64,000 nucleotides of DNA. Source: Thermostichus lividus PCC 6715. GTDB lineage: Bacteria > Cyanobacteriota > Cyanobacteriia > Thermosynechococcales > Thermosynechococcaceae. The notes below the pieces were generated by a model. The model was given only the letters and a program-made list of their open reading frames with translations, was not told the origin of the DNA and did not search any database. This document shows positions 1,244 to 49,393 of the stretch, piece by piece; within the stretch, counting starts at the first letter, position 1; every line of letters begins with the position of its first letter. Both the position numbers and the translations under genes were made by a program. The stretch is taken from the NCBI RefSeq assembly GCF_002754935.1, contig NZ_CP018092.1:496001-560000 (forward strand), read 5' to 3'.

Positions 1244-2437
1244 TCAACGTTGTTTCATTGGTAATTCGCTATTGATGGCTTCAATGCGGTCTTGCTCTGC
1301 GGCATTCATGTGGTCAAGGTAGTGATCAAAGATCTGGGCAAGGCGCGGCTCATAAAATCGATGGAGGCTGTAGTTGGGCGTTGCCGGAAAGCCGCGGCGT
1401 TTCTTGTGGCTGCCGCCAGCGCCGGGATCAAACCGCTGGATACCGTTGGCGATCGCCCACTCAATCGGTTCGTAGTAGCAGGTACTAAAGTGCAAGCAGT
1501 CAATATCTTGCCGTGTGCCCCAGTAGCGACCGTAAAGCTGATCTCCCTTGGTGACACAAAAGGACATGGCCGTAGGCTGGTGGCCTCCTTGGCTTGGGTA
1601 GGCGGCAAACAACACTAGGCGGTGCTGATAGCGATCGCTGAGGGCTTCAAAAAAATCTCGGGTGAGATACTTGCTGCCCCACCAGCCAAATTTGTCGCAG
1701 GTATCGGCATAGAAATCGTACATTTGCCGCAACAGCCGCCCAGTAACGTCATTGCCATGGTGGACCCGAAAGGTCAGTTCCGCTTGGGCAACGGCCTTGC
1801 GCTCCCGCTTGATATTACGGCGTTGGTTGGCATTAAAAGCCGCTAAGTAGTCCGCAAACGTCTGGTAGTTGTGATTGTGCCAGATGTAACTGTGGTGTAG
1901 CCATGGCTGATAGCCATAGGCTGTGGCGTAGGGCATCCACTGCGGATCCACGTAGAGAAAATGGCAACCAGACAGACGATGATGGGCACAAAGGCGATCG
2001 ATTTCGTGGAGCATCACCTTCGTAAGGAAGGCCACATCCGCCTCGGCAGCCATCAAAAAACGATAGCCTTCTGCGGGGGTGAAGGGTGCCATACCCAACA
2101 GCTTCGGATAGTAACGCACCCCCAGCCGTTCCGCTAGGTCGGCCCACTGATGATCAAAAACAAACTCCCCTTGACTATGGCCTTTGATGTAGAGGGGCGC
2201 TGCCGCTACTAATTCACGATTCTTTTGGGGTGTCTCTTGCCACACCAGTAAATGGTGCGGTAACCACCCCGTTTGGGGTGTTGCGCTGCCGGATGCCTCA
2301 ATTTGATGGAGCCACTCCCACTCAAAAAAAGGGGTCTTGAGAGGCAACGCAAGGGCATCCCATTGCTCTTGGGGCACCTTTGCAATGGCATTGACCCACT
2401 GAATCGTTAAGTTAGCAGCCAGTTCCGCCTTAGCCAT
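1244..2437 (-). CDS. COG3146 family acyltransferase-like protein (FemAB/GNAT fold, DUF482)
   Basis: A 397-residue soluble protein I recognise as the COG3146/DUF482 family. It is related to GNAT and FemAB acyltransferases and is often annotated as peptidogalycan biosynthesis protein. Recognisable family features are the N-terminal WDAL followed by PFFEWEWLH, the central FNANQRRNIKRERK block, and the C-terminal FDPGAGGSHKKRRGF motif before the terminal helix. No signal peptide or membrane segment is visible, so it is cytosolic. The substrate is unknown. It is transcribed alone, divergently from the ycf66 gene. Start: ATG at 2437, the first in-frame ATG. Confidence 0.85.
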   Translation of the reverse strand: MAKAELAANLTIQWVNAIAKVPQEQWDALALPLKTPFFEWEWLHQIEASGSATPQTGWLPHHLLVWQETPQKNRELVAAAPLYIKGHSQGEFVFDHQWADLAERLGVRYYPKLLGMAPFTPAEGYRFLMAAEADVAFLTKVMLHEIDRLCAHHRLSGCHFLYVDPQWMPYATAYGYQPWLHHSYIWHNHNYQTFADYLAAFNANQRRNIKRERKAVAQAELTFRVHHGNDVTGRLLRQMYDFYADTCDKFGWWGSKYLTRDFFEALSDRYQHRLVLFAAYPSQGGHQPTAMSFCVTKGDQLYGRYWGTRQDIDCLHFSTCYYEPIEWAIANGIQRFDPGAGGSHKKRRGFPATPNYSLHRFYEPRLAQIFDHYLDHMNAAEQDRIEAINSELPMKQR

Positions 2438-2623
2438 ACCCTTGAGTGCAAAAGCATCTGTTGTACTATAGCAACTTGCATCTTCAGACCATACGTGTGG
2501 CGCTCATTGCCTCCGGTGCGTCGTCGAGGCGGCAACCCCTTATTCTGCTCGAAATCCGTGGACAATCACAAGAATAAATTCTTGCAGAGGTGAATTCACT
2601 GCGGTGTAAGGTAGAAGGTTAAG

Positions 2624-2647
2624 ACCCCCAATGTGCGACTAGGGGGT
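2624..2647. repeat. Perfect 6-bp inverted repeat in the ycf66 leader
   Basis: ACCCCC and GGGGGT are separated by a 12-base loop, 31 bases upstream of the ycf66-like start codon. No T-run follows, so termination is unlikely. It may be a leader-RNA hairpin. Function unknown. Confidence 0.3.
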
Positions 2648-2678
2648 GCAGCCGCCGTTATCTTGCTGAGGACTGGGA

Positions 2679-3569
2679 ATGCTAACAAATCTACTGGCTT
2701 GGAGTCTGGCGATCGCCAGTTTAGGCTTGTACTTATCCGGGTTCTTTTTGCCAGAGTTGTACCGTAAGTTTGATTTGGCAGCCAGTGGTGCCGGTCTCTT
2801 TTTTGCCTTGACCTTGTGGATCTACGGCGATCGTGTCAATGGTGGTTTACTTTTGGGTACTACCGCAGGGGTTGCCCTAATTCTCTGGTTTGGTTGGCAA
2901 ACCTTTCAGTACCGCTGGCAACTGACCCACCCTAGCGATCGCACCGATACCCAAAAGGCAAAAGCGCTCTGGCAACGCATTCAAACATTGCTTCCAGAAG
3001 GTACGCTAACCCAGATCAAAGACCGTGTCCAACGTCTATTCAGTGGTGCCGTAGCAAAGGACAAAGACAAAGGGATAGCCGCTGCACCACCTACTGCTCC
3101 CAGCTCAGAGCCGCTGATGGATACAAGTTCTGATATGAAGGAGGACTTGTGGAGCGAAAGCCAAGCCAGCAGCACCTTACCCACGAATGTTGAGACAGTG
3201 TCCCCAACCGCAGACGCACCAGCAGAGTCAACTGTTGAAGACTCACCATCCACAGCAGCAACAGCCGCACCACCCAGTGAGCCAGAACAGCCACCGGCCA
3301 CCCCAGACCCAGAGCGTGCAGAGCTAGCGGATGCTCCGGAGAACACGCCAGTATCAACCCCCGTCACTGACGAGTCTGCGGGTTTAGCGGATTTAGAGGT
3401 AGAGGAAACCCCTGCATCAGCGGTAGATCTCATCAATGACATTCCCGACAACAGCGACGAAGAAACCCCCACCACAAGCATTGAAAATCCAGAGCACTTG
3501 TCATTTCCCACGGATAGCTCTAGTTCACATGAAGGTGAGTCATGGCCTCCTCCGGGCACTAGCGTATAA
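2679..3569 (+). CDS. Ycf66 family protein
   Basis: A 296-residue protein. The N-terminal ~95 residues match what I know of the Ycf66 family: helices around residues 5-25, 33-50 and 57-72, with PELYRKFDL between the first two and FGWQTFQYRWQL after the third. Ycf66 is encoded in cyanobacteria and some plastids, and its role is unclear. Beyond residue ~130 the protein is a low-complexity Pro/Ser/Thr/Glu/Ala tail, probably disordered and soluble. Start ATG at 2679 has GAGG 11 bases upstream. It is monocistronic. Such tails vary in length within the family, so domain identity rests only on the N-terminal third. Confidence 0.82.
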   Translation: MLTNLLAWSLAIASLGLYLSGFFLPELYRKFDLAASGAGLFFALTLWIYGDRVNGGLLLGTTAGVALILWFGWQTFQYRWQLTHPSDRTDTQKAKALWQRIQTLLPEGTLTQIKDRVQRLFSGAVAKDKDKGIAAAPPTAPSSEPLMDTSSDMKEDLWSESQASSTLPTNVETVSPTADAPAESTVEDSPSTAATAAPPSEPEQPPATPDPERAELADAPENTPVSTPVTDESAGLADLEVEETPASAVDLINDIPDNSDEETPTTSIENPEHLSFPTDSSSSHEGESWPPPGTSV

Positions 3570-45986: not shown

Positions 45987-47621
<1,635 letters not shown>

Positions 47622-47853: not shown

Positions 47854-48294
47854 TTATGGTTGTTGTGGTCTCATTGGGCGATTGCCGGGGCGACGCTGCT
47901 GCATTTGAGTTGCTAAGGCTTGGCGTTGCTGTGGGGTCAGAATACTACGCATGGCTAGCATACTCTCAAACCGCAGGGATGCCAGTTGGTTTTCTAGCTC
48001 CCGAACTTGCTGGTGCTTGGCACGAATCTGATCGTCACTGGCAGTGCCACTCATCATCTGCCGCAGCTCTTCTTTGGCAGTACGCAGCTGGTTACGGGTT
48101 TGCTCCATGCGGCTTTGATATTGCTGCCGTACGGCTTGTAGTTGTTGCCGCTGCTCTGGGGTAAGGTTGAGGTTCTCGAAGTTACGATAGCCGGGGGGCG
48201 TGTGTGCAGGCTGCGCTACCGTAGCAGGGGCAATGGCTAGCATGGGGCTGAGGCTACCACACAGGAGTAGGGCGGTTAGGCTTTGTTTTAACAT
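47854..48294 (-). CDS. Spy/CpxP-like periplasmic protein (LTxxQ motifs)
   Basis: 146 residues with an N-terminal signal peptide (SLTALLLCGSLSPMLAIAP, cleavage near VAQ). Two LTPEQRQQL/LTPQQRQAL motifs flank a helical coiled region (RMEQTRNQLRTAKEELRQMM), the arrangement of Spy/CpxP chaperones and metal-resistance proteins. Basic Pro-rich C terminus. Third gene after an ECF sigma factor and a membrane protein, with a 54-base gap, so it probably belongs to the same envelope-stress operon. The exact client or ligand is unknown. Confidence 0.8.
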   Translation of the reverse strand: MLKQSLTALLLCGSLSPMLAIAPATVAQPAHTPPGYRNFENLNLTPEQRQQLQAVRQQYQSRMEQTRNQLRTAKEELRQMMSGTASDDQIRAKHQQVRELENQLASLRFESMLAMRSILTPQQRQALATQMQQRRPGNRPMRPQQP

Positions 48295-48348
48295 AGGGAT
48301 TCTCCGAGTTTGTCACGAATGGTATAGGGCGTACACAGGCCAATGAGG

Positions 48349-48693
48349 CTAGTCAATAACTGTGAGGTCAGAACTAGGCGAGAGGTCAGATTCGTGAAAG
48401 ATCACCTGCCAGTTATGGCTGATAAAGGCTTCCACAGAATCGGGTGAGTAGTCTTGAGTAACTTGGGGAGGTGGCTTCAACAGCCACGCGGTTGTGACGG
48501 TGGCGATCGCCCCGGTGCTCAGCAGAGTGAGTGTGCGCCACCAGCGTTTTGCTTGCTGTTGCTGTTGCAGCGCGGCTTGCACAATGACGCGATCAAGCTG
48601 GGGATGGGGGGGTGGCGGAGTGCCTGCATAGGTTCGCAAAAAATTAACCAAGACGGTATCCTCGCAAGACTCAGATGACGGCGGGAGGTTCAT
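48349..48693 (-). CDS. Membrane protein, probable anti-sigma factor
   Basis: 114 residues: a cytosolic N-terminal half (ESCEDTVLVNFLRTYAGT, LDRVIVQAALQQQQQ), a single TM helix at about 55-72 (LTLLSTGAIATVTTAWLL) and a periplasmic tail with FISHNWQVIFHESDL. Start ATG overlaps the sigma-factor stop by four bases. Size, topology and position downstream of an ECF sigma gene are those of anti-sigma factors, but the classical HxxxCxxC motif is absent. Assignment is from context. Confidence 0.65.
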   Translation of the reverse strand: MNLPPSSESCEDTVLVNFLRTYAGTPPPPHPQLDRVIVQAALQQQQQAKRWWRTLTLLSTGAIATVTTAWLLKPPPQVTQDYSPDSVEAFISHNWQVIFHESDLSPSSDLTVID

Positions 48694-49295
48694 AGACTCA
48701 CTCCTGCATTGGTAAAGTAGGTGCGTAAGGTTCCCCGAGCACGAAACAAGCGGGACTTAACCGTCCCCACAGGAATGCGTAAAATTTCGGCAATGTCCTT
48801 TTGGGGGAGTCCCTGTAAATCGTGCAGTACCAGTACACTACGGTAATCTAAGGACAACTGAGCTAGGCCCCGCTGGACTAAATCTTCGTAGTGTAATTGC
48901 TTCAAATCGGGACCGGGGGTGAGGGGTTCGCTGTTGTGAAGGTACTCATGGTGACGCGATTTGCGGGTGGCAAGCTGGCGGCGATAGTCGCAGGCCACGT
49001 TCCATGTAATTCGGTACAACCATGTGGAAAACTTTGCTTCGTGCTTCAGCCCCCGCAGACCTTTCCACGCCCGCAAAAACACTTCTTGAACCAAATCATC
49101 GAGGGCGATCGCCCCACAGAGCTGAAAGAGTAGCGATCGCACCCGCTGCTGGTGCCGTTGATACAGTTCACGAAAGCCATGGGGATGTCCAGCAAGGCAT
49201 TGCTCAATCACTGGACGGTCAGGGTCAGACACCTTGGCTTGTGGGTGTACGCTTGGTGCAGCCGTCATCAACGGTAGGGGTATAGATACACTCAT
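48690..49295 (-). CDS. ECF-type (RpoE-like) RNA polymerase sigma factor
   Basis: 201 residues. Sigma region 2: YQRHQQRVRSLLFQL, DDLVQEVFLRAWKGLRGL, KFSTWLYRITWNVACDYRRQ. Region 4 helix-turn-helix: LSLDYRSVLVLHDLQGLPQ with DIAEILRIPVGTVKSRL. About 35 extra residues at the N terminus; ATG 49295 is used but a later Met (MTAAPSV) is possible. First gene of a three-gene operon with a membrane protein and a Spy-like protein; probably released when the envelope is damaged. No region 3, as expected for ECF factors. Confidence 0.92.
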   Translation of the reverse strand: MSVSIPLPLMTAAPSVHPQAKVSDPDRPVIEQCLAGHPHGFRELYQRHQQRVRSLLFQLCGAIALDDLVQEVFLRAWKGLRGLKHEAKFSTWLYRITWNVACDYRRQLATRKSRHHEYLHNSEPLTPGPDLKQLHYEDLVQRGLAQLSLDYRSVLVLHDLQGLPQKDIAEILRIPVGTVKSRLFRARGTLRTYFTNAGVSL

Positions 49296-49328
49296 CGGAG
49301 GTATCGCTCCATTAACGTAATCACCTAT

Positions 49329-49356
49329 TCAGACTCAAGGAGCCGAAAAGGGGTTC
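49329..49356 (-). promoter_or_regulatory. Candidate ECF-type promoter of the sigma operon
   Basis: On the coding strand, GAACCCC and TCTGA are 16 bases apart, close to the E. coli RpoE pattern (GGAACTT-N16-TCTGA), about 35 bases upstream of the sigma start codon. This would fit autoregulation. Inference from pattern only. Confidence 0.4.
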
Positions 49357-49364
49357 ACACTGGT

Positions 49365-49393
49365 TGATCTATAACTGATCTACAACTGATCTA
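49365..49393. repeat. Three TGATCTA repeats with exact 11-bp period
   Basis: TGATCTA occurs at 49365, 49376 and 49387, each 11 bases apart, with AACTGATCTAC the best-conserved unit. The last copy overlaps the stop codon of the LON-domain gene. The spacing is about one helical turn and lies just upstream of the sigma-operon promoter, so it could be a binding site for a regulator. Confidence 0.5.

Follow-up and report, generated by a model that had tools for sequence, protein, structure and literature searches.

Behind the gene for an ECF (group 4) sigma factor in Thermostichus lividus PCC 6715 lie, on the same strand, genes for a small membrane protein and a Spy-like protein. This arrangement raises two questions: what kind of anti-sigma factor the membrane protein represents, and whether the Spy-like protein senses envelope damage or is a product of the response to it. 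A sequence-only reading had proposed a new kind of anti-sigma factor with the Spy-like protein as its periplasmic sensor. We analysed a window, meaning the whole stretch of 64,000 nucleotides, that covers positions 496001-560000 of one 2.66-Mb contig. The locus is best explained, in our judgement with good confidence, as the cyanobacterial SigG-SapG switch with a conserved chaperone-like output, a switch that is conserved and largely known already. A more ambitious reading, in which SapG forms a separate zinc-free two-helix class apart from CnrY, SigG heads a cyanobacterium-wide envelope response with several Spy-like core outputs and a group-2 sigma relay, and the operon's Spy feeds back on SapG, appears doubtful.

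Identity and conservation of the sigG operon

The anatomy first read from the sequence, an ECF sigma factor, a membrane anti-sigma factor and a Spy-like gene on the minus strand between 47854 and 49393, agrees with the open reading frames and Pfam matches, and its limits are correct. The features, in window coordinates, are as follows.

49295-48690, minus strand: sigG, ECF (group 4) sigma factor, 201 aa (open reading frame; Pfam, NCBIfam)
48693-48349, minus strand: sapG, putative single-pass membrane anti-sigma factor, 114 aa (overlap, adjacency, predicted model)
48294-47854, minus strand: spy-like gene, Spy/LTXXQ family, presumed periplasmic chaperone, 146 aa (Pfam, family profile)
49356-49329, minus strand: SigG-type promoter, GAACC (-35) N17 GTCTGA (-10) (sequence; conserved form)
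49365-49393, plus strand: three TGATCTA repeats with an 11-bp period, directly upstream of the -35 element (this genome only)

The first two frames overlap by four bases, as the sequence-only reading had stated. A groEL gene (45987-47615) lies on the same strand, 238 bp downstream of spy.

The sigma protein matches Pfam Sigma70_r2 and Sigma70_r4_2, with region 3 absent, and scores 290.5 bits against NCBIfam NF009171/PRK12518 (cut-off 208), a model whose title does not carry the name SigG and which we infer to be equivalent to it. E. coli RpoE is the best PDB match of its profile (E 7.9e-35). Only two ECF-like genes were matched in this genome, and a review table lists SigG and SigH for BP-1 (accessible text of PMC2758279). 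Judged by family, by position and by the presence of only two ECF-like genes in the genome, the first two genes are assigned to the published cyanobacterial SigG-SapG pair.

According to the accessible text of PMC2758279, sigG of Synechococcus PCC 7002 is cotranscribed with the next gene, sapG, and the two products interact in yeast two-hybrid assays; the gene order is kept in five cyanobacteria, T. elongatus BP-1 among them. The same source describes one Synechocystis sigG promoter as RpoE-like, as is the promoter here, and reports SigG to be essential in Synechocystis PCC 6803 and required in the cold in PCC 7002. The SigG-SapG systems of PCC 7002 and Nostoc punctiforme share with our locus the same ECF sigma factor, gene order and downstream partner, and comparison by the published descriptions (accessible text of PMC2758279) revealed no difference. 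In Anabaena, alr3281, the next number after sigG (alr3280), is given as one of 14 genes lowered in a sigG mutant (PMC4390870, in part), and SigG of N. punctiforme has been linked to cell-envelope repair (PMC6495340, in part, citing Bell 2017). Envelope stress, as originally suggested, is the best reading of the operon.

Conservation was surveyed in 289 genomes of the class with a completeness of 95% or more. Matches to the SigG profile (E up to 1e-38) were obtained in 130 of them, and matches to the SapG profile (E up to 0.001) likewise in 130; one of the latter, a weak match in genome G094 at another ECF locus, was not counted as SapG. Among the 130 SigG genomes, sapG immediately follows sigG in 129, and spy comes next in 121. 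Spy is present in 123 SigG genomes, the best match of every Spy-positive one standing among the matches listed, and in at least 15 of the 159 SigG-less genomes among the same matches. The nine SigG genomes without an adjacent spy comprise six of one genus, two sister genomes with a relocated spy, and G026. The six (genus g27 of family f17) have kept SigG and SapG, and a seventh f17 genome, G088 from another genus, has spy; absence in the six is probably one loss. In G026 a shortened SigG occurs with neither sapG nor spy, which we read as joint decay; its SigG match (L027) stops at profile position 137 of 183, with the end of region 4 missing. A small anti-sigma factor with a chaperone-like partner is common to nearly all SigG-bearing cyanobacteria sampled.

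Loci were compared in a set of 37 sigG loci from 36 genomes, two of which (L013 and L032) share one contig; ten (L032-L041) were used as SigG loci after being taken from at least 80 loci listed. The four-base overlap recurs in 34 of 35 called sapG genes (exception L038), a count biased toward that result by start calling that favoured the start nearest the overlap. At L013 (2314-3423), a tandem pair of spy genes lies downstream of sapG. In the draft genome G022 (76% complete), sapG and spy occupy a single open frame (L129, minus strand 2076-3074), either a fusion or an assembly error.

Promoter form and candidate SigG targets

The RpoE-like promoter reported upstream of sigG is confirmed, in the form TGAACC-N17-GTCTGA; the promoter consensus of E. 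coli RpoE is similar in type. Across the 37 loci (36 genomes), TGAACC-N17-GTC stands upstream of sigG in 32 and was missed in five, with 38 matches in total over 180,935 bp and both strands. A search of 11 genomes of the genus gives nine occurrences of TTGAACC-N17-GTCTAA, eight of them before sigG; GTCTGA is the variant of this genome and of G010, its nearest relative. The sigG promoter is probably read by SigG itself. Other inputs also exist: in vitro, FurC binds the region upstream of alr3281 (PMC10406281, in part), and a Fur-type motif is found at sigG of Synechocystis PCC 7338 (PMC8155712, in part). A predicted GGAAC/GTC motif for SigG has already been published (PMC8155712, in part, citing Todor 2020). 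A SigG-type promoter within the operon, between sapG and spy, was considered and rejected, the two matches in 35 loci (L003 and L012) both being intragenic. Sigma-70-type promoters (2, versus 1.7 in shuffles) and terminators (3 versus 2.2) in the region were close to the shuffled numbers.

A wider regulon is not visible in this genome because GAACC-N16-18-GTCTRA is no commoner (4 occurrences) than its reversed control (5), and only the sigG site is credibly placed; prediction of an own-genome regulon by motif was rejected on this ground. Across 50 SigG genomes, TGAACC-N17-GTCTAA gave 94 matches, 27 before sigG and 67 elsewhere, and many of the latter are chance matches since the reversed control gives 40. 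After these results had been seen, the pattern was sharpened to TGAACCTTT-N14-GTCTAA, which yielded 61 matches in the 289 genomes versus two for its reversed control. Sixty fall in the 130 SigG genomes and one in the 159 SigG-less genomes, many of which are small (1.6-3 Mb), with counts unscaled for genome size. The strict promoter motif tracks SigG.

Thirty of the 61 strict sites precede sigG; the other 31 were all read individually and, apart from the one in the SigG-less genome, are spread over 27 of the 130 SigG genomes (sites L169-L173 do not fit the strict pattern and lie outside the 31). The largest group, 14 sites in eight genera with seven from one genus, precedes Spy-like genes whose products show a second layout, with two LTxxQ half-motifs (L159, L161, L164-L167, L178, L182-L188); three of these proteins were profile-tested, all above the LTXXQ cut-off, and the rest were called by motif. 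Nine sites in seven genera lie 77-186 bp upstream of a group-2 sigma factor gene (L157, L158, L160, L162, L174, L176, L177, L179, L189), and both of the two products that were profile-tested exceed the NF004615 cut-off. A relay from SigG to a group-2 sigma factor is accordingly a possible arrangement in nine genomes, as read from site placement. The remaining sites precede efflux adaptors (four sites, three genera, three proteins profile-tested) and small secreted proteins (two), or stand at the 3' end of a gene (one) or, in the SigG-less genome, before a MotA/ExbB-type gene (one).

The Spy-like protein as output or sensor

The Spy-like protein scores 48.8 bits against Pfam LTXXQ (PF07813; cut-off 24.3) and also exceeds the cut-off for Pfam Metal_resist. 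Searched against the PDB, its family profile has E. coli Spy chains as the top match (best E 1.8e-11), followed by ZraP (E 7.9e-6) and CpxP (E 1.1e-3), a likeness at the level of sequence profiles. The E. coli proteins Spy, ZraP and CpxP are controlled by two-component systems, unlike the gene here, which lies behind an ECF sigma factor.

Two lines of comparison point to an output. SapG of the six Spy-less genomes, in which no spy match was obtained and none was present in the six loci, retains the EAW[VIL]EAxW-type periplasmic stretch, whereas in L040 and L041 (Gloeobacterales) and in the similar L028 spy is present and SapG lacks a recognisable form of it; the SapG motif does not track the presence of Spy. 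The relocated spy genes of the two sister genomes, probably the result of one event, each carry TGAACT-N17-GTCTAA upstream, which departs from the usual -35 element by a single base. No SigG-type site was found within 500 bp of the five spy genes tested (of eight listed) from SigG-less genomes, nor of 12 second spy copies. This genome also has a second Spy-like gene outside the window (G000 C1:346652-346966, L126), with no SigG-type site in 500 bp. From these comparisons, Spy is best read as an output of SigG rather than a required sensor.

The proposal that the Spy-like protein is a periplasmic sensor, here taken as a sensor or co-inhibitor sitting on the periplasmic tail of SapG and titrated off by misfolded proteins in the manner of RseB, CpxP, CnrX or AabB, is therefore unsupported in its original form and unlikely in general: beyond the six Spy-less genomes and a SapG motif that does not track Spy, it does not fit a relocated spy with its own SigG-type site or the other Spy-like genes behind such sites. 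RseB itself is not known as a Spy-family protein. The attraction of the proposal lies in the adjacency of spy to sigG-sapG in 121 of 130 SigG genomes, in the single sapG-spy frame of one draft genome, and in the SigAb-AabA-AabB system of A. baumannii, where AabB, the third sigAb operon product, has anti-sigma activity and is modelled around the periplasmic end of AabA (accessible text of PMC12153292). That system resembles the present operon in having a sigma factor, a membrane anti-sigma factor (AabA, 107 aa, modelled like CnrY), a periplasmic third protein, overlapping genes and, as is probable here, autoregulation with a small number of direct targets. SigAb differs in answering copper and in not reading RpoE-type promoters, and the accessible text of the same paper mentions Spy or LTXXQ zero times in connection with AabB (PMC12153292). 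Feedback by Spy is kept as a possibility because of the anti-sigma activity of AabB.

SapG build and the proposed switch

The HxxxCxxC (Hx3Cx2C) zinc motif is missing from the membrane protein, as the sequence-only reading had observed, and from all 26 aligned relatives (0 of 27), which separates them from the zinc-binding anti-sigma (ZAS) domains. This absence was rejected as proof of a new anti-sigma class, since the motif is also missing from about 44% of class I anti-sigma domains (PMC7406223, in part). SigG-SapG pairs are themselves already published (PMC2758279, in part). Neither Pfam, above cut-off, nor NCBIfam has a family that matches the membrane protein, and none of the 27 SapG proteins had a Pfam match above cut-off. 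SapG gave no meaningful PDB match (best E 0.055) and no match against plasmids.

Ahead of the transmembrane segment the 27 proteins have a median of 54 residues (range 42-82), with positive charges mainly on that side. A single-chain structure model of SapG, built from 11 sequences (mean pLDDT 74, pTM 0.29; blocks of 91-94 over residues 11-40), predicts helices at 7-21 and 33-72, the second continuing into the transmembrane segment (about 54-72), followed by a short periplasmic helix at 84-101. The prediction corresponds to a class II build, with two cytoplasmic helices, a linker and one transmembrane segment, like the two-helix CnrY of CnrYXH from Cupriavidus metallidurans pMOL28 (PMC7406223, in part). 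PF17524 (CnrY) was matched by none of the 27 at E up to 0.01, and hhalign gave SapG and CnrY a probability of 0.1%, with no detectable sequence kinship; CnrY homology was not found. Combining a class II-like build with no CnrY kinship, SapG appears to work like something other than what it belongs to. The predicted two-helix, CnrY-like build is a better ground for calling SapG unusual than its missing zinc motif.

A class I anti-sigma domain comprises about 80-100 residues. Whether SapG could be an ordinary member of that class minus its zinc motif, as the motif's absence from about 44% of class I domains would permit, is answered by its build: the segment before the membrane is short, no Pfam match stood above cut-off in 27 of 27 proteins, and the two predicted cytoplasmic helices differ from the four-helix class I (ASDI) domain, which uses helices 1 to 4 and contacts sigma via helices 1 and 4 (PMC7406223, in part). 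E. coli RseA, of class I, has 217 aa (accessible text of PMC7406223 and PMC12153292) compared with 114 aa for SapG. We regard this identity as very unlikely.

Some peculiarities of SapG sequences may be recorded. Residues F18, L19 and P27, within the predicted cytoplasmic part, are invariant among the SapG sequences compared. A TTGCTG repeat at window 48553-48568 encodes five glutamines (SapG residues 43-47) in predicted helix 2; L003 has four, and other loci of the genus have His/Gln mixes. SapG of L040, L041 (Gloeobacterales) and L028 terminates in Y-x-[VL]-x-[FY], an end that presumably resembles the outer-membrane-protein C-termini that activate DegS.

CnrX, the periplasmic partner in the Cnr system, senses metal through His ligands and belongs to the same Pfam family as the Spy-like protein, both exceeding the Metal_resist cut-off. 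A metal-sensing Cnr-type system, in which the LTXXQ protein binds metal and the operon answers metal excess, is nonetheless highly improbable: among 21 Spy-like proteins, no alignment column has His or Cys in half or more of the sequences, so that the conserved metal-binding His of CnrX is lacking; CnrX is absent from PDB matches at E up to 1, where Spy is best; hhalign gives the Spy-like family and CnrX a probability of 2.2%, no CnrX homology being found; and the three-gene operon has no metal transport gene. The gene order on pMOL28, cnrY-cnrX-cnrH, also differs from sigG-sapG-spy.

The three TGATCTA repeats at an exact 11-bp period are real (one match versus a mean of 0.00 in 100 shuffles of the window), and their near-helical spacing right upstream of the -35 element might suit an activator or repressor site controlling sigG; that role is scarcely credible for an array that is single in the genome at up to three mismatches, absent from all other sigG loci compared, and overlaps with its last copy the stop codon of the upstream LON-domain gene (frame end 49391). 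Among the sigG loci compared, those of this genome alone carry as many as two exact copies with the same spacing, and the block upstream of the -35 element is unlike that of nine other aligned loci of the genus. Comparison of these sequences places the triplet in this genome alone and gives no support for a function.

In the SigG-SapG switch as we propose it, SapG would hold SigG inactive at the cytoplasmic membrane as a minimal anti-sigma factor, its two helices probably clamping SigG regions 2 and 4 as CnrY does on CnrH. Envelope damage would act on the short periplasmic tail of SapG and free SigG, probably by regulated proteolysis. Freed SigG would transcribe its own operon from TGAACC-N17-GTCTRA, yielding more SigG, SapG and the Spy-like periplasmic protein, and in some cyanobacteria its targets would probably extend to additional Spy-like proteins, efflux adaptors and a group-2 sigma factor.

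The signal and targets of SigG are thinly described in the open-access literature searched. The SapG prediction suggests that anti-sigma factors of two-helix design extend beyond CnrY and the analogues named so far. This envelope-stress pathway becomes directly testable: its promoter is precisely defined, the candidate targets are few (Spy-like proteins, efflux adaptors and a group-2 sigma factor), and SapG has a predicted structure.
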